This document shows, piece after piece, positions 29,409 to 38,312 of a stretch of DNA of 64,000 nucleotides. Source of the DNA: a bacterium (GTDB lineage: Bacteria; Bdellovibrionota; Bacteriovoracia; Bacteriovoracales; Bacteriovoracaceae). The first letter of the stretch is position 1. Each line of letters starts with the position of its first letter. Position numbers and translations under genes: made by a program. The stretch covers positions 1 to 64,000 of the forward strand of contig JAUHVL010000015.1 of the NCBI GenBank assembly GCA_030425045.1, in the 5' to 3' direction. The notes beneath the pieces were generated by a model. That model worked only from the letters and a program-made list of their open reading frames with translations. It ran no database searches and was not told where the DNA came from.

Positions 29409-30521
29409 GTGAAGAAAACAGGCGTCTTACATTTTAAAGGTCGAGATAAAGTTTCCGTCGAGGTTGTTCTTGAAGACAATTCTATAAAAGTCCTCAATCA
29501 TGATACTTTAGATATTCTTAAATATGATCAACTAAGCTTAGAAATTGGCGGAGCGAATAATCATCTTTTTTTCTTTAAACCACAGCACTCTAAAGATTAT
29601 AGTCTTCAGTTAAATATTGATCATGATTTAAGCTCTTTTATTAAATCATTAGGTAGAGATTCTTTTAATAAAATTGTGAGTAAGCATAAAAGAGCAAAGA
29701 CGCTTTTCACGTCTCTTGTTTTAATCTCATTTCTAACAATCGGTTTGATTCTTTTTGCTCTTATTCAATCGAGAAGCTTTTTAGCCGATCGGATCGCAAA
29801 ATCTATTCCCTATGAAACAGAACAATTAATTGGAGAGCGGTTGGTTTCAGTGATGATTCCGCCCTCTAAAAGTATTCGAAAGGGAAAAGTGCAAGAGGAA
29901 CTTGAAAAAATGTTAGCTCCTCTTGTAAAGGTTCTGCCAAAAGAGTTTCAAGAGATGAATTTTTTTATTGCTGACGATAAAAACTTAAATGCTTTTGCTA
30001 TGCCAGGTGGAAATATTGTTCTAAACCGAGGACTATTGGAAAAAGCTGACAGTGATATTGAAGTATTGGGTGTAGTGGCCCATGAAATGGCCCATGTCAC
30101 GCAGAGACACGTACTTAGAAGTATGATCCAAGGAGTTGGGATCTTTCTTCTTATTCAAACTATGCTAGGTGATATGACAGGTCTCATCGCTGTCCTGGGT
30201 GATCAGGGGAGTTTTCTGTTAAGTCGTAGTTTTTCACGAGATATGGAGACTGAAGCCGACAAAGTTGGATTTCAGTATTTAATGGCAGCAAAGATTCCAC
30301 CTGAGGGATTGATCGCATTTTTTAAAAAAATTATTTTAGAAAGTGAAAAGGTGCTCGGAAAAGAGTTATCTAAAGTGAATATTTCTTTTTTAAGCACTCA
30401 TCCAGATACTGAAAAAAGAATTAGTGAAATTGAAAATATGATCAAAAGAGAAAAGAGTCAATTTCACTATAAGAGTGATTATTTAACAAAAATAAAGACC
30501 CAGCTAAAGGGGGAGAAATGA
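29409..30521 (+). CDS. M48-family metalloprotease, single membrane anchor
   Basis: Residues 1-95 form an N-terminal beta-rich domain. One membrane helix (TLFTSLVLISFLTIGLILFA, about 100-120) follows, then the M48 protease domain: AFAMPGGNIVLNRGLL, VVAHEMAHVTQRH (zinc His225 and His229, catalytic Glu226) and METEADKVGFQYL with the third ligand Glu. The C-terminus STHPDTEKRI is the usual M48B/YggG-type end. It probably degrades misfolded envelope proteins. Start GTG 29409 lacks a strong Shine-Dalgarno. Its stop overlaps the first AIM24 gene (ATGA), so protease and AIM24 proteins are co-made. Confidence 0.9.
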   Translation: MKKTGVLHFKGRDKVSVEVVLEDNSIKVLNHDTLDILKYDQLSLEIGGANNHLFFFKPQHSKDYSLQLNIDHDLSSFIKSLGRDSFNKIVSKHKRAKTLFTSLVLISFLTIGLILFALIQSRSFLADRIAKSIPYETEQLIGERLVSVMIPPSKSIRKGKVQEELEKMLAPLVKVLPKEFQEMNFFIADDKNLNAFAMPGGNIVLNRGLLEKADSDIEVLGVVAHEMAHVTQRHVLRSMIQGVGIFLLIQTMLGDMTGLIAVLGDQGSFLLSRSFSRDMETEADKVGFQYLMAAKIPPEGLIAFFKKIILESEKVLGKELSKVNISFLSTHPDTEKRISEIENMIKREKSQFHYKSDYLTKIKTQLKGEK

Positions 30522-31183
30522 ATGTAGAAGTGCTTGGAGGCAGTTCTTTTTCTTATTTAAAAGTAGAACTTGGTCCTAAAGAAGCGATGATTACGGAACC
30601 GGGCGCTATGTCGAGTATGGATTACGGAATTGATTTAAAGAGTAAATTAAATGGAGGGATTTTAAGAGCTCTCGTTTTAAAGTTTTTAGGAAAAGAATCA
30701 CTTTTTATTAATAGATTTTATAATACTGAATCTGAAAGTCAGACTCTCTATCTCTCTCAAAAGTTTCCCGGTCAAATTTGCCAAGAAACAATTAAGAATG
30801 AACCTCTCTACATACAACCGGGAGCTTTTATTGCCTGTACTCCTGGAGTTCGCTTTTCATTGAGGTGGGCCGGCTTTAGCTCTTGGCTTGGTGGCGAAGG
30901 ACTTTTTCGTTTATTGATAAGAGGAAAAGGGCAAGTTTGGTATGGGGCTTATGGTTCAGTTATTGAAAAAGAGGTGGTCGGAGAATATATCGTCGATAAC
31001 GGACATCTCTTGTCTTACCCAAAAGATATGGACCTTTCGATAAAATTGGCCGGAGGTATCTTTTCCAGCTTGTTTGGAGGTGAAGGCTTAGTTTTAAAAT
31101 TAAAAGGTAATGGAAAAATTAAATTACAAACAAGATCGCTGGGCGGTTTGGCCGGCTGGCTTAATCCTCGTTTTAGAGCATAG
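30518..31183 (+). CDS. AIM24/TIGR00266-family protein, copy 1
   Basis: 221 residues with the repeated Gly-rich beta pattern of the family: EPGAMSSMDYGIDLKSKLNGG, GKESLFINRF, YIQPGAFIACTPGV, GGEGLFRLLIRGKGQVW and GGEGLVLKLKGNGKI. AIM24 proteins form a pseudosymmetric TRAP-like barrel; the bacterial function is unknown. It is coupled to the M48 gene by the ATGA overlap and lies 8 nt from copy 2. Of the three, it has the strongest change at the start (LGGSSFSYLKVEL). Confidence 0.88.
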   Translation: MNVEVLGGSSFSYLKVELGPKEAMITEPGAMSSMDYGIDLKSKLNGGILRALVLKFLGKESLFINRFYNTESESQTLYLSQKFPGQICQETIKNEPLYIQPGAFIACTPGVRFSLRWAGFSSWLGGEGLFRLLIRGKGQVWYGAYGSVIEKEVVGEYIVDNGHLLSYPKDMDLSIKLAGGIFSSLFGGEGLVLKLKGNGKIKLQTRSLGGLAGWLNPRFRA

Positions 31184-31191
31184 GAATAAAT

Positions 31192-31878
31192 ATGGAAGTC
31201 TCAATTCAATACGGCCCAAGTAATACTGCTGCGAAAATAGATCTTCAAGATGGAGAAGTCATAACCGCAGAAGCTGGGTCAATGATTGCAATGAATGGAA
31301 ATTTATCAGTTGAAACATCAACTCATAAAAAAGGTAAGGGGAGTTTTCTTAAGTCCTTAAAAAGGATGTTTGCTGGAGAATCTTTCTTTTTAAATCATTA
31401 CACATCAAACGGCTCTGGAGAGTTGTGGTTATCTTCAACTCTTTCCGGTGAAATGATTACGAAGGAGTTAAGTGAAGGGGAAACATTAATTGTTCAAGCT
31501 GGCAGTTTTGTCGCCGCTGAGCACTCTGTGAATATGGATGTTGGCTGGCAAGGATTTAAAAATATTTTATCAGGTGAGGGACTCTTTTGGTTGAAGTTAA
31601 CAGGACCTGGAAAAATAGTTTTAACTTCATTTGGCTGTATTTATGAAGTGATCGATGATGACGATGGTTATGTTGTCGATACAGGGCATATTGTCGCTTT
31701 TGAAGAGTCATTAAATTTCTCCATTTCAAAAGCTGGAACAAGTTGGTTTTCCTCTTTTTTAGGTGGAGAAGGTTTTGTTTGTAAGTTTAGTGGCAGAGGA
31801 AAAATATGGTGTCAAAGCCATAATTCTAGAGAGTTTGGTTCACAGCTAACACCATTTTTAAGACCAAAAAAGAGGTAA
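31192..31878 (+). CDS. AIM24/TIGR00266-family protein, copy 2
   Basis: 228 residues, the most canonical copy: ITAEAGSMIAMNGNLSVETS, AGESFFLNHYTSNGSGELWL, VQAGSFVAAEHSV, SGEGLFWLKLTGPGKIVL and a C-terminal GGEGFVCKFSGRGKIWCQ. It probably assembles with copies 1 and 3, perhaps as a hetero-oligomer (inference). Its stop shares one base with the start of copy 3 (TAATG). Confidence 0.9.
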   Translation: MEVSIQYGPSNTAAKIDLQDGEVITAEAGSMIAMNGNLSVETSTHKKGKGSFLKSLKRMFAGESFFLNHYTSNGSGELWLSSTLSGEMITKELSEGETLIVQAGSFVAAEHSVNMDVGWQGFKNILSGEGLFWLKLTGPGKIVLTSFGCIYEVIDDDDGYVVDTGHIVAFEESLNFSISKAGTSWFSSFLGGEGFVCKFSGRGKIWCQSHNSREFGSQLTPFLRPKKR

Positions 31879-32552
31879 TGATGTTTGATTATAGTATTGA
31901 AGCGAGTCCTGATTATGCAATTTTAAATGTATCAGTACCTGAGGGTGAAAAGATTAAAGTTGAAGCTTCAAGTATGGCCTCAATGGATACAAATTTATCA
32001 ATGTCGACAAAAATTAAAGGAGGCTTTTCAAGGTTTCTTTCAAAAGAGTCGTTATTTATAAACGAATTTGAAGCACAAAATGGAGATGCTGAAATTTCAA
32101 TTGCACCAGGGCCTAGTGGTGATATCGGTCACTATAGTATAAGTGGTAACGAAAGTTTTTATTTAACAGCAGCTTCTTTTCTCGCTTCCACTATGGGTGT
32201 GCAACAAGAAACCAAATGGCAAGGACTCAAAAAAGGCTTCTTCTCTGGAGAGAGTTTTTTTCTCATTCGCTGTAGTGGTTCGGGACAAGTTTGGTTTAAT
32301 TGCTATGGGGCGCTTTTTAATGTCGACGTCAAGGATGAATATGTCGTTGATACAGGACATGTGGTGGCCTTCACTGAAGGACTTGATTACGATATTTCTA
32401 AATTTGGTGGATACAAGTCATTATTTCTTTCGGGAGAGGGTTTCGTTTGTCGTTTTCGAGGCGAAGGAAAAGTTTGGATTCAAACCAAAAACCCGATGGG
32501 TCTTGTTTCGTGGGCAGATCGTTTTCGTAGAATAGAGAGATCGAATAATTAG
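31878..32552 (+). CDS. AIM24/TIGR00266-family protein, copy 3
   Basis: 224 residues with KVEASSMASMDTNLSMSTKI, SKESLFINEFEAQNG, LTAASFLASTMGV, SGESFFLIRCSGSGQVWF and a C-terminal SGEGFVCRFRGEGKVWIQ. Like copies 1 and 2 it lacks a signal peptide, so the set is cytoplasmic or peripheral at the membrane. Two ATG codons at 31878 and 31881 are alternative starts. A tRNA-Leu gene on the other strand follows after 8 nt. Confidence 0.88.
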   Translation: MMFDYSIEASPDYAILNVSVPEGEKIKVEASSMASMDTNLSMSTKIKGGFSRFLSKESLFINEFEAQNGDAEISIAPGPSGDIGHYSISGNESFYLTAASFLASTMGVQQETKWQGLKKGFFSGESFFLIRCSGSGQVWFNCYGALFNVDVKDEYVVDTGHVVAFTEGLDYDISKFGGYKSLFLSGEGFVCRFRGEGKVWIQTKNPMGLVSWADRFRRIERSNN

Positions 32553-32560
32553 AAAAGATA

Positions 32561-32644
32561 TGGTGCCCGGGACTGGACTTGAACCAGCACGGCTTGCGCC
32601 ACACGCCCCTCAAGCGTGCGTGTCTACCATTCCACCACCCGGGC
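32561..32644 (-). tRNA. tRNA-Leu (anticodon GAG)
   Basis: The minus strand begins GCCCGGGTGGTGGAATGG and ends GTCCCGGGCACCA with an encoded CCA. The 7-bp acceptor stem pairs GCCCGGG with CCCGGGC. The anticodon stem CACGC/GCGTG holds loop TTGAGGG, giving anticodon GAG. A class II variable arm follows and the T arm contains GGTTCAAGTCC. It is 84 nt with CCA. Confidence 0.95.
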
Positions 32645-34044: not shown

Positions 34045-34133
34045 TGGTGCCCAGGGCCGGACTTGAACCGGCACGGCCTATCAGGGCCCGCGGATTTTAA
34101 GTCCACTACGTCTACCAATTTCGTCACCCGGGC
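34045..34133 (-). tRNA. tRNA-Leu (anticodon TAA)
   Basis: The minus strand begins GCCCGGGTGACGAAATTGG, has anticodon stem and loop GGACTTAAAATCC with anticodon TAA, a class II variable arm, a T arm with GGTTCAAGTCC, and ends GCACCA. The acceptor stem contains one G-T wobble. It is 89 nt with CCA. Confidence 0.95.
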
Positions 34134-34154: not shown

Positions 34155-35756
34155 TTGAACTATCGTCATTATATCTGTCAATTATTTATTGTGCTACCTC
34201 TATTTTTATTTTTTTCTTGTAGTACGGAAAAAAGAATTAGAGAGGCGGAGTATAAGGCCCCAGAGTATATATCAGCTAAGCCTGTTTGGTTTAATGGGCC
34301 TGAGCGATTTAGAACACCAACAAAGTATTTAGATATACCACCTCATCCATTTTTTGATCTTATGCCTTATTGGTTACCAAAAAGCTCTACTGTCAGTTTT
34401 GTGATGGTGACACCACAGAGCTCTCCTTATTTGTATAATTTTGATCTCAAAACAGGAAAGAAGTATTTACGCCATAAGAAATGTGCGCAAAGAGATATAT
34501 GGAAGCGTTATAAAGGTCGTATTGAAAAATCGCCTTTTTCAGAAGGTTTTGTTCCGAGACTTGTTGATCAAACAGGGAGGCCACAAACCATTTATGTTTT
34601 TGGTGATGAACGTTATTTTGAAAATCAGCAAAGCTCAGATATGGCCTTTTCTGAGCGTGTGAGAGTTGTCGGTGGGGTCGTTGTTCAATATTGTCGCTAT
34701 TATCCCTGTAAAGGTAATCGTTCTTGGAAAACAAAGCTTGTCTTAATTGCTGTGAACCCAAAAGATCCAAAATTTAGAGACATTTATAAAATTGAAAGGC
34801 TGAGAAAGAAGACAGATTGGAATTATGTGAGGGCCTATATTGAAAATTATCGCGGTCGAAAAGTGATGGCGAGCCGTGAGTATCCCTCATACAGAATTAT
34901 CGGTGAAATACCTGCTATAAAAGCAGGGCAATATGCTTTCGATAAAGGATTTCTTTTTTCCATTGATAATATGAATATTTTAAGAAAACAGTGTTACAAG
35001 CTTTATGATTATATGTGGAATCATATGGAAAAAATTAGAAACTATCAGCCTAAAAAAGGTGAGATTGAAAAGGCCATTAAGAAAATGGACCCCATTGGAT
35101 TTTATCAAAATGATTTTGGGGCAAATGTGATTAGTGATGAAATTAAAGAAGTTGAAAATATAGAAACAAAAGAAAAACTTGATGATAAATTAGATTTTAA
35201 GGGTGATTTCAATCGCTTCTTTGGTCACTTAATGACCAATTATCGAAGACAAGCGCGATCTTGTTTTAAATACGTTCAAAGCACGAATCTCAATGAAAAC
35301 TATAGACGACATTGGGCCTTTGCTTATATTGAAAATTTCTTCAACCTTCATTCCTTAGAGCAGTCATATGAATGTTATAGAAAAGTTTGGGTTGATAATC
35401 CCAAACTTTTATCAGGGAAAAAACAGTTTAAAGAACAATATAATAACTGTACAACAGATGCTTTTAATCGTTCAATGGAGCGAGGAATTACGAGAATGGC
35501 CGTATTGAAAAAAAGAGATAGTGAACATTATCAGTATATTCAATACGACAATAGAGTTGGTGGAACTCATGAAAAGATATATTCTTGGGTCTATCATAGT
35601 GGGAAAAACTTAAGTTGTGTTAGTAGTAAAAAAGATAAAAACAAAAAAAGTATTTATCAGCTAGTTGAACTGAAAGAAGAAGTGTTTCCTTTAGATGTTT
35701 CTTGGGAATATTTTGTTGGTGATAAAACCAGTGATAATGACATCATAATTAGGTAA
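34155..35756 (+). CDS. Large lipoprotein heading the Nuo-like operon
   Basis: A signal peptide (YICQLFIVLPLFLFFSC) ends in a lipobox. The mature protein of about 510 residues is rich in Tyr, Arg and Lys (IENYRGRKVMASREYPSYRI) and contains several scattered cysteines. No known domain is recognised. The start is TTG 34155 with AAGGAA 7 nt upstream. The stop TAA shares its last base with the ATG of the NuoB-like gene, so they are translationally coupled, although the lipoprotein is exported and the NuoB-like protein is cytoplasmic. Confidence 0.75.
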   Translation: MNYRHYICQLFIVLPLFLFFSCSTEKRIREAEYKAPEYISAKPVWFNGPERFRTPTKYLDIPPHPFFDLMPYWLPKSSTVSFVMVTPQSSPYLYNFDLKTGKKYLRHKKCAQRDIWKRYKGRIEKSPFSEGFVPRLVDQTGRPQTIYVFGDERYFENQQSSDMAFSERVRVVGGVVVQYCRYYPCKGNRSWKTKLVLIAVNPKDPKFRDIYKIERLRKKTDWNYVRAYIENYRGRKVMASREYPSYRIIGEIPAIKAGQYAFDKGFLFSIDNMNILRKQCYKLYDYMWNHMEKIRNYQPKKGEIEKAIKKMDPIGFYQNDFGANVISDEIKEVENIETKEKLDDKLDFKGDFNRFFGHLMTNYRRQARSCFKYVQSTNLNENYRRHWAFAYIENFFNLHSLEQSYECYRKVWVDNPKLLSGKKQFKEQYNNCTTDAFNRSMERGITRMAVLKKRDSEHYQYIQYDNRVGGTHEKIYSWVYHSGKNLSCVSSKKDKNKKSIYQLVELKEEVFPLDVSWEYFVGDKTSDNDIIIR

Positions 35757-36229
35757 TGGAAGAAAACAAATTAGTAAAAGCGACAAATTCAAATGCTCTT
35801 TTTAATTGGGCCTTAAGATGGTCTCAGTCTAAATTATTATGGGCCTTTCCTGTAGGGACCGCTTGTTGTGAGCCAGTGATTGACCCCGCTTTTAATATTA
35901 ATAATGACAATTATATTGAACCCTATCCTTTTTATTTAGATGCTAAAGATTGCGATGTTTTAATCGTCTCAGGAACGATATCAAAAAAGTATATTCCTTA
36001 TCTCGAAGAGCTTTATCAAAATATGGCCAGTGAAAAATGGGTGATGGCGATAGGGGCTTGTGCTATTTCGGGAGGCCCTTATAAATCTTATTCGACAGTC
36101 CATGGTTTGGATAAACTTTTTAATGTCGATGTATGGGTTCCAGGATGCCCTCCCGATTCTCTCGCTATCTATAGTGGGTTAGTTACGTTGGAAGCAAAAG
36201 TTAAAAAAGGTCTGGGTGTTTTGCAATGA
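35756..36229 (+). CDS. NuoB-like iron-sulfur subunit
   Basis: NuoB carries the terminal N2 4Fe-4S cluster of complex I. The ligand pattern is kept: TACCEP (two adjacent Cys), GACAISGGPYKSYS and VPGCPPDSLAIYSG. Between them KDCDVLIVSGTISKKYIPYL matches the NuoB ADVMIVAGTVTxKMAP block. At 157 residues it lacks the longer termini of some NuoB. ATGA couples it to the NuoCD-like gene. It could also be the small subunit of a hydrogenase-like complex, but the large-subunit partner lacks nickel ligands. Confidence 0.88.
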   Translation: MEENKLVKATNSNALFNWALRWSQSKLLWAFPVGTACCEPVIDPAFNINNDNYIEPYPFYLDAKDCDVLIVSGTISKKYIPYLEELYQNMASEKWVMAIGACAISGGPYKSYSTVHGLDKLFNVDVWVPGCPPDSLAIYSGLVTLEAKVKKGLGVLQ

Positions 36230-37827
36230 GTAGGTCTTTTTTAGAGTCACTCAAATTTGATTTTAATAACTCAAAAATAGATGAGATTGATTCGCATATT
36301 TTAATTGAAACATTTCTTAACAGTATTCAATCAGATGTTAAAAAATTGAAAAATGAGTATGGGTTTATTTTTTTAAGTGACATCATCGGAATTGATAAAG
36401 ATGACTCATTTGAAATTATCTATCACTTAACAAGTTTTGAAACGAAGTTTAAATTATTTTTGTCCTTAAAACTTGATAAAAGAGATGAATTACCGAGTAT
36501 GAATCATCTCTGGCCACTTGCTAAATTTTACGAACAAGAGCTTTGGGATCTTCTCGGAGTAAAAGTACATAAAGATAATCGTAAAAGAATCTTAAATCAT
36601 CCTGATTTTTTTGGGTACCCGCTTTCGAGAAATTTTGAGCAAAAGAATGTGAACTTATCTGATGTATCTAAAGAAGAGCTGCCTAAACTTAACCATTCTG
36701 TCATAAGTTCAAATCGTAATGATAAAGAATTATGGTCATCGGTAGGGCCTTGCTCACAAAACATTAAAAAACCTTTGCAGGTTTTTTTAAAATGTGAAGA
36801 TAACTTGATCATTGATAGTGTGCCTAAAATTGGACACGTCCACCGAGGTGTAGAGAAAATAGCAACAGAGCTGGATTATTTTAAGTTTAACGTTTTTGCA
36901 GATCGAATAAATTACCAATCAAGTGGTTTGGGTAGTATTTCTTGGTGTAAAACAGTAGAAAAACTTTTATCAATAGAAATTTCTGATCGATCAAAAGCCT
37001 TGCGCATGGTTTTTCTTGAACTCGGTCGTATTGCAGATCATTTAACTTGCCTTTCTCATATATGTCGTGAAATCTCCTTTATGGAGTTCTCTTGGAAAAG
37101 TTTAGATTTAAGAAATGCATTATATGATTTATTTTTCTCTTATAATGGAAAAAAAGACTTTCCAATGCCAGCAAGGATTGGTGGAATGTCAAATAAGCTA
37201 CCTTATGGCTGGAGTGCTCAATGCTTAGATACTGTTAAGCTAATTAAAAATGCACTCGTTGAATTTGAAACAGACCTTATTCGTTCAAGACTCTGGATGG
37301 ACTCTCTTAAAGTCTGTGATATTAATTCAACCACGGCTATTTTATATGGCGTAACTGGTCCAACATTACGTGCTTGTGGTATTAACTTTGATCTTAGAAA
37401 AGATAGGCCCTATTATTTTTATGAAGAAGTAGAGTTTGAAGTTCCTCTTGGTGTCAGAGGGGATGTTCATGATCGATATCTCGTTCGCTTTGAAGAAATT
37501 AAACAGTCATTAAATATTGTAACTCAAGTGATGGACAATTTACCTATTGAAAAAAATAACGATTACAATTACGACCCTAACTTTTGGTTTGATTTAGAAG
37601 AGGTAACACTAAGTAAAACGGTCTATGATGCTGTTGAGTCAGCCAATGGTGAATTTGGTTTTTATATAAGCTCTCTCACAAATAAAAGAGCAGATAGGGT
37701 GAAGATTAATACTCCCTCTTTTAACCATGTTTTCACTCTGCCTGAAGTTTTAAAAGGAAATGATGTTGATACTGTCCCTCTTTCTATCGAGTCATTAAAT
37801 ATTGTTTGTACGGAGCATGATCGTTGA
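36226..37827 (+). CDS. Fused NuoC-NuoD-like subunit, quinone-site His motif lost
   Basis: Residues 1-150 are NuoC-like, with FYEQELWDLLGVKVHKDNRK and ILNHPDFFGYPLSRNF. Residues 165-533 are NuoD-like: IGHVHRGVEKIATELDYFKF, FLELGRIADHLTCL, PARIGGMSNKLPYG and a SLNIVCTEHDR end matching SLDPVxGEVDR. The NuoD motif GPQHPSTHG, whose His residues line the quinone pocket, is GPCSQNIKK. The Tyr of MDYLHS survives as INYQSS. There are no CxxC nickel ligands, so it is not a hydrogenase. It presumably forms the connecting module with the NuoB- and NuoI-like proteins. The TTGA overlap couples it to the next gene. Confidence 0.86.
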   Translation: MSRSFLESLKFDFNNSKIDEIDSHILIETFLNSIQSDVKKLKNEYGFIFLSDIIGIDKDDSFEIIYHLTSFETKFKLFLSLKLDKRDELPSMNHLWPLAKFYEQELWDLLGVKVHKDNRKRILNHPDFFGYPLSRNFEQKNVNLSDVSKEELPKLNHSVISSNRNDKELWSSVGPCSQNIKKPLQVFLKCEDNLIIDSVPKIGHVHRGVEKIATELDYFKFNVFADRINYQSSGLGSISWCKTVEKLLSIEISDRSKALRMVFLELGRIADHLTCLSHICREISFMEFSWKSLDLRNALYDLFFSYNGKKDFPMPARIGGMSNKLPYGWSAQCLDTVKLIKNALVEFETDLIRSRLWMDSLKVCDINSTTAILYGVTGPTLRACGINFDLRKDRPYYFYEEVEFEVPLGVRGDVHDRYLVRFEEIKQSLNIVTQVMDNLPIEKNNDYNYDPNFWFDLEEVTLSKTVYDAVESANGEFGFYISSLTNKRADRVKINTPSFNHVFTLPEVLKGNDVDTVPLSIESLNIVCTEHDR

Positions 37828-38312
37828 TTTTAAATAGAAGGTATTATTTTTATAGAAATATATTTCACTCTCTTTTTAACACAATAAAAAGAGTGATGGT
37901 TCTATCTTTTTCTTTTTTTAAGAAAAATGACGAAATGAAAGAAGAGGCACTTTTTACAGGTCCTCCCTTTTTGGTTATTCATCCTGATCAAACTCTTTTG
38001 TGTACATCATGTGAAAAGTGCCAGGTTGTTTGTCCAACAAGTTGTATCGAGCTGTCAGGTAATGATCAAAAAAACCCACCAACGTCATTTCAGATTGATA
38101 TGATAAATTGTGTTTATTGTGGTCTATGTGAAGAGGTTTGCCCAGATGATGCTATTTATATGAGTCGTGAGCTTCCTCCGGTTTTTACTGATGCAAATGG
38201 GCCAGGGGACTTCTTGTGGGGAATAGATAAACTTGCTTTTAGAAAATCTCTTAATCAAGGCAAGGGGATTGTTGTAAAAGACGGTGAACTTCAGTTCCAA
38301 AACGAGTCGTAA
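37824..38312 (+). CDS. NuoI-like 2x[4Fe-4S] ferredoxin subunit
   Basis: Two 4Fe-4S motifs, CTSCEKCQVVCPTSCIE and CVYCGLCEEVCPDDAIY, are spaced as in NuoI and joined by FQIDMINC, which matches the family RYxIDMxxC. The N-terminus YYFYRNIFHSLFNTIKRV resembles the amphipathic NuoI helix. In complex I it passes electrons toward N2 in NuoB. Start TTG 37824 overlaps the previous stop. This is the last gene of the operon; its end is overlapped by 62 nt by the convergent hydrolase gene. Confidence 0.87.
   Translation: MILNRRYYFYRNIFHSLFNTIKRVMVLSFSFFKKNDEMKEEALFTGPPFLVIHPDQTLLCTSCEKCQVVCPTSCIELSGNDQKNPPTSFQIDMINCVYCGLCEEVCPDDAIYMSRELPPVFTDANGPGDFLWGIDKLAFRKSLNQGKGIVVKDGELQFQNES

Follow-up and report, generated by a model that had tools for sequence, protein, structure and literature searches.

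A lipoprotein-linked operon in the Bacteriovoracaceae, very probably the soluble half of a second complex I that has decayed

The operon and its lipoprotein

The window analysed here is the whole stretch of 64,000 nt (positions 1 to 64,000 of contig JAUHVL010000015.1, assembly GCA_030425045.1). An operon of four ORFs lies at positions 34155-38312 on the forward strand, in which neighbouring genes overlap by 1-4 nt. The first gene (34155..35756, +) encodes a lipoprotein of 533 aa with a TTG start and a lipobox cysteine, Cys22. It is succeeded by genes for a NuoB-like subunit (B', 35756..36229, +, 157 aa), a fused NuoC-NuoD-like subunit (CD', 36226..37827, +, 533 aa) and a NuoI-like 2x[4Fe-4S] subunit (I', 37824..38312, +, 162 aa, TTG start). 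The initial annotation had read four coupled genes here, lipoprotein-NuoB-NuoCD-NuoI, and Pfam and NCBIfam searches agree: B' matches Oxidored_q6 (3.9e-20), CD' matches both Complex1_30kDa (2.3e-22) and Complex1_49kDa (1.1e-53), and the top NCBIfam match of I' is NuoI (3.4e-18). The lipoprotein matched no family in these databases. Upstream, the window carries three tandem similar genes of 221-228 aa (30518-32552), AIM24-type in look when judged by eye, and two tRNA-Leu genes on the reverse strand (32561-32644 and 34045-34133; gag, taa), the second of which stops just upstream of the lipoprotein start.

The cofactor sites of the three Nuo-like proteins have fared differently. All four N2 cysteines (CC...C...C) are present in B' by alignment, and all eight cluster cysteines of I' are found in its two 4Fe-4S motifs, CTSCEKCQVVC (38001..38033, +) and CVYCGLCEEVC (38109..38141, +). 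In CD', the quinone-site motif GPQHPATHG is replaced by GPCSQNIKK (36745..36771, +); by alignment the quinone-site His has become Ser and the Asp has become Glu, and the Tyr is unchanged. CxxC pairs of the kind that ligate NiFe are lacking in the CD' sequence. The intact N2 ligands, the altered quinone motif and the missing NiFe ligands had all been claimed from the letters of the window, and each was borne out.

The lipoprotein is family-specific and, besides the lipobox cysteine, has eight further cysteines that are invariant in 16 orthologues. An AF2 model based on these orthologues (pLDDT 78, pTM 0.79) was searched against the PDB with Foldseek, and among the matches listed 50/50 were inorganic pyrophosphatases by title (best E 3.6e-8). 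The TM score of the best match is 0.77 normalised to the target and 0.27 normalised to the query, pointing to a single domain with this predicted fold (~34332..34934, +; approximate limits, from the DSSP string). The only PDB sequence matched by the lipoprotein profile at E<=10 was also a pyrophosphatase (E 0.18). At the positions of Asp65, Asp67 and Asp70, which we take to be the catalytic aspartates in E. coli pyrophosphatase numbering, Asp is kept in 0, 1 and 0 of 48 lipoproteins, respectively. Given that the catalytic aspartates of the modelled domain are replaced, the lipoprotein is most likely a pseudo-pyrophosphatase, and this extends to genome G004, in which the rest of the system looks intact (see below). 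It would share its predicted fold with soluble family I inorganic pyrophosphatases but differ from them in being lipid-anchored and longer, in its eight extra conserved cysteines and in the replaced Asp residues. Many orthologues share the residues CQLK right before the hydrophobic signal stretch, which may point to an incorrectly assigned start or to a DNA element that is conserved. Moreover, a secreted protein of 371 aa in G120 (L284 1278-2393) scores 77.6 bits against PF00719 and 82.6 bits against the lipoprotein model, with DGDPVD still in place; it is possibly of the ancestor type.

Canonical and degenerate membrane arms in the same genome

The source genome (3.97 Mb, 91 contigs) was searched for a separate canonical nuo set, as the initial annotation had proposed, and one was found. 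Its canonical NuoB-C genes close contig C32 and its NuoD-I genes open C57, with GPQHPATHG in this NuoD; a canonical nuoA-H-J-K-L-M-N arm lies at C34:79384-87123. We refer to this set (B-C-D-I plus the nuoAHJKLMN arm) as type-1, and to the standard 14-gene nuoA-N operon found in some genera as type-2. NuoF (PF01512), by which the NuoEFG module was judged, was found nowhere in the source genome. The type-1 B-C-D-I operon is without adjoining NuoEFG in the source genome and in nine relatives fetched (L175-L183, L004, L013). Elsewhere in the family, the type-1 arm of G060 and G059 (L108, L129) itself looks degenerate (M and N score only 51-95 bits against the canonical proteins), as though decay had set in for a second arm too. 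In G061 (L167) complex I has yet another, third layout, A-B-CD-H-I-J-K-L-M-N, which lacks EFG.

Directly after type-1 nuoN there is a second set of seven overlapping membrane-protein genes (C34:87148-92546), of 77, 321, 135, 73, 470, 342 and 390 aa, whose order and relative lengths are those of A-H-J-K-L-M-N. We call this the ghost arm and mark its genes, like those of the window operon, with a prime. The absence of a membrane arm and of NuoEFG that had been reported therefore stands within the window, and for NuoF across the whole genome, but not for the arm, of which there are two on C34; the view of a stand-alone, arm-less module does not hold, the seven degenerate genes being too diverged for Pfam. 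Behind the ghost arm lies the gene of a TPR protein of 1041 aa that matches GYF_2 weakly. This protein was considered as a partner and rejected: it remains where either or both arms are gone (L095, L109), so that its link to the arm may be positional.

Assignment of the ghost genes rests on several lines of comparison. H', L', M' and N' of the source genome gave no Pfam match at E<=1. H' was nevertheless retrieved by models that excluded H' itself, at E 8e-5 and, as relatives were added, at 2.8e-19 and 1.2e-22, with no other family scoring better than 0.018. In profile-profile comparison each of the seven less-decayed ghost genes matches canonical subunits at 98-100%, and the deep ghosts in turn match the less-decayed ones for H', J' and K'. 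Homology of A', L', M' and the deep N' was unsupported by a BLAST network, iterative HMMs and profile-profile comparison alike, and the AF2 model of N' from the source genome is of low confidence (pLDDT 60), its fold search giving no significant match. In the source genome only H' is confirmed by sequence, and A', J', K', L', M' and N' are assigned by position, order, length and hydropathy. Across the family, ORF chaining gave exactly seven ghost genes in 39 genomes, a count that is partly a product of the chaining rule, which drops small or nested ORFs. The rank correlation of their lengths with the canonical order has a median of 0.96 and a lowest value of 0.71; for comparison, a value of 0.89 is reached by about 0.6% of the possible orders of seven. 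The ghost arm of g43 has five genes, and a few loci are cut by contig ends.

The decay of this arm is graded. In G004 and G065 the arm is plainly that of a complex I (H' of G004 matches PF00146 at 4.4e-105, and L' and M' match Proton_antipo_M), and the proton-path motifs are intact where read in the alignment. Some proton-path residues are lost in G057, G064, G056 and G062, and nearly all in G000. Nearly all key proton-path residues are likewise gone from the arm assigned in the source genome, with the alignment of such deep ghosts being uncertain. That the ghost arm is a duplicate of the adjoining type-1 arm was rejected, because in most loci type-2 H (~120-156 bits) fits the model of ghost H better than type-1 H does (75-106 bits) and CD' groups with type-2 D.

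Descent and distribution across the family

The NuoD tree that had been suggested was built from some 70 rows and 356 columns. Type-1, type-2 and lipoprotein-linked copies form separate groups, and the lipoprotein-linked copies, CD' of the window among them, are one clade that is sister to NADH-type NuoD. G065 and G004 are basal in this clade on branches of 0.12-0.16, with other branches reaching 2.9. Deep nodes within the clade have weak support and hence the number of independent losses was left uncounted. Taken together with the ghost arm, the operon very probably represents the soluble half of a second complex I that has decayed. The system belongs by descent to the complex I superfamily and, by the features tested, is not a complex I.

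We examined 129 genomes of the order sample, all labelled as one family that includes Halobacteriovorax. The lipoprotein profile matches 109 of these 129 genomes, as against 1 of 240 other genomes of the phylum. Operon neighbourhoods were read at ~20 loci and then at some 35 more. The suspected link to an envelope lipoprotein was upheld, the lipoprotein being a standing partner in an operon that recurs across the family, most commonly as lipo-B'-CD'-I'. At one end of the range, the catalytic set is complete in genus g4 and in G065: the G004 operon reads lipo-B-CD-E-F-G-I with GPSHPATHG (L055; arm at L085), and G065 has intact counterparts of operon and arm (L111/L153). E, F and G are present but degenerate-looking in G112, an F remnant is found in G119 and a G-like gene in G128. 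At the other end, G022, G048, G059, G060 and G061 have the lipoprotein and CD', and no B' or I' was found there by script. Two lipo-B'-CD'-I' operons were seen in G026 (L144, L145), an assembly with 9% contamination. In genus g36 (L155, L157-L158; G103, G089) lipo-B'-CD'-I' comes immediately after a full 14-gene type-2 nuoA-N operon, and the g36 genomes that were checked showed no ghost arm at their TPR locus.

The catalytic residues have disappeared just as unevenly. Among ~50 CD' copies aligned, quinone His, Tyr and Asp are all kept only in G004, G065 and G120/G121, whereas all three are intact in type-1 and, save for one Glu, in type-2 NuoD. B' cysteines are gone and both I' motifs kept in G002, G003, G019, G026-G028 and G123; I' cysteines are gone in G050 and G054, where B' has at least the CC pair; and both are gone in G021, G063, g36, G024, G115 and G116. 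Outside g4 and G065, the order of loss differs between lineages for NuoEFG, the N2 cysteines, the quinone His/Tyr/Asp, the proton-path residues and the NuoI clusters.

The system shares features with several known ones. With NADH-type complex I (NDH-1, nuoA-N) it has in common homologous B, C, D and I, membrane genes in the same order and a sister NuoD clade, but in the window system NuoF, the quinone His/Asp and the proton-path residues are missing and a lipoprotein is added. The 11-subunit NDH-1 and Fpo-like complexes, and the family's own type-1, equally consist of B-C-D-I plus AHJKLMN without NuoEFG, but in them the proton-path residues and the quinone site (GPQHPATHG) are both retained. 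Energy-converting NiFe hydrogenases (Ech, Hyc, Mbh) have B/C/D/I and antiporter-like subunits of common ancestry with complex I; CD' differs from their counterpart in lacking NiFe ligand cysteines and in grouping with NADH-type NuoD. In a study of complex I isozymes both sets are reportedly catalytic, whereas the second set here reads as non-catalytic. Such isozymes within one genome are the topic of PMC4859585, which resembles our case in presenting two paralogous complex I sets in one bacterium.

Selection, co-occurrence and a possible scaffold role

Pairwise dN/dS (Nei-Gojobori) was calculated for five species pairs, with a gene set that differs by pair. For G045/G046 and G043/G045, from the same genus as H. 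marinus (G044), the type-1 arm, primed genes, lipoprotein and TPR gene were measured; for G126/G127 the primed genes, lipoprotein and TPR gene only; for G120/G121 B', CD', I' and the lipoprotein only; and for G104/G086 type-1, B', CD', I', lipoprotein and TPR. Many values for primed genes, lipoprotein and TPR gene are saturated (dS infinite), including all of these in G104/G086, and a printed 0.00 is to be read as unmeasurable; other values rest on dS of 1-2.8 and are rough. For the type-1 arm the values were 0.02-0.07 in the first two pairs, and in G104/G086 they were 0.02-0.11. Where dS was measurable, primed genes ranged over 0.05-0.27 in the first two pairs, 0.06-0.20 in G126/G127 (0.04-0.20 with the lipoprotein included) and 0.03-0.06 in G120/G121, and the lipoprotein over 0.04-0.05. 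Primed genes and lipoprotein are therefore under purifying selection where measurable (0.03-0.27, far below 1), the ghost genes mostly being looser than type-1 in pairs with both measured.

The co-occurrence and INDEPENDENCE of CD' and the ghost arm were scored by hand from loci: by genus, 32 have both, 2 CD' only (g36, g10), 2 the arm only (g12, g30) and 5 neither (Fisher p 5e-4, which is indicative, as genera lack independence and the scoring of some drew on a single genome). Within genera scored as having both, G007 and G017 have two arms without a CD' or lipoprotein match. Genus g36 and G024 have CD', but the loci examined there show no ghost arm. G018 is without CD' and ghost arm, and its sister G019 has both. 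The lipoprotein occurs without adjoining CD' in G107, G108, G110, G111 and G018, the ghost arm also being absent in G107, G108, G110 and G018. Conversely, the ghost arm occurs without CD' or lipoprotein in G029 (88% complete), G071 (66%), G007 (91%) and G017 (89%), and the G065 ghost arm without the lipoprotein at a contig end; assembly gaps may be the cause of ghosts without a lipoprotein. In six genomes, all at least 90% complete (G019, G026, G028, G062, G064, G123), the ghost copy is the sole NuoD/NuoH found: CD' is the one NuoD seen, PF00146 gives nothing but weak matches of the ghost type, and the arm locus is the ghost alone (in G019 and G028 the stretch ends near A', and G026 is 9% contaminated).

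Across this family, most of whose members are predatory, nearly all catalytic residues have been lost while the genes stay under selection, and so the second complex I copy probably serves a non-respiratory role. Taken as a whole, the account we favour, with somewhat better than even confidence, is that of a second complex-I-derived assembly kept as a non-catalytic membrane scaffold. The operon would encode the lipoprotein and the peripheral arm of this assembly, and the A'H'J'K'L'M'N' cluster at C34:87148-92546 would be its membrane arm. It would descend from an NADH-type (NuoEFG-bearing) complex I that gained the lipoprotein partner in the family ancestor, after which most lineages would have lost the NADH module, the quinone site, the proton-path residues and often the iron-sulphur clusters, the genes staying under purifying selection. 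The products may assemble into an L-shaped membrane complex that docks cytoplasmic and periplasmic partners, for example the pyrophosphatase-fold lipoprotein; we infer this assembly, its structural role and the lipoprotein contact.

Of the alternatives, a still-active oxidoreductase, with electrons passing from I' through N2 in B' to a non-quinone acceptor at the remodelled CD' site, survives best and is nonetheless unlikely. Because B' and I' of the source genome keep all their cluster cysteines, residual redox activity is possible there, and the retained quinone-site Tyr of CD' fits with it. However, the source genome lacks NuoF, and relatives have lost the ligands of B', of I' or of both, independently, and yet keep the genes. 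Electron transfer cannot then be the function that these lineages share, and the connecting module with a non-quinone redox partner that was first envisaged is unlikely as a family-wide function. That a redundant complex I is decaying slowly and neutrally, and does nothing at present, appears more doubtful still. The faster evolution of the primed genes relative to canonical ones would agree with it, as would the graded loss of subunits across the family and outright loss in g28, g32, g34, g39, g41 and G018, but in most genera examined the ghost ORFs are open and overlapping despite identities that are often <20% for the antiporter-like ones, and dN/dS is well under 1 where measurable, even in G126/G127, where the locus lacks a canonical arm. 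An accessory of the type-1 complex I, as assembly partner or as the other half of a heterodimer, would explain why the ghost arm lies directly downstream of the type-1 arm; it is nevertheless improbable, given the six genomes with a ghost and no type-1 NuoD/NuoH found, and several with type-1 and no ghost. A simply split, diverged but working complex I, which the g4 and G065 copies do resemble, is the least probable of all, since B', CD' and I' are not the only such genes in a source genome that also has the canonical set, and since this genome has lost NuoF, the quinone His/Asp and the proton-path residues, barring sites that were rebuilt in other places.

Returning to the scaffold, we give roughly even chances to its full form, in which a whole complex has become a non-redox, non-pumping, complex-I-shaped scaffold with a pseudo-pyrophosphatase lipoprotein and is retained where every other complex I has been lost. 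The system was not described in the open-access literature searched. Single dead enzymes are common, but we know of no report of a whole multi-subunit respiratory complex being kept by selection after losing its chemistry. Within the family the copies grade from a lipoprotein-linked complex I that is intact (g4, G065) down to a minimal remnant of the soluble arm, lipoprotein plus CD' (G022, G048, G059-G061), a natural series that shows the losses that complex I architecture tolerates and makes alternative scaffold roles testable. If true, an entire respiratory complex would have turned pseudoenzyme in a family that includes predatory bacteria.
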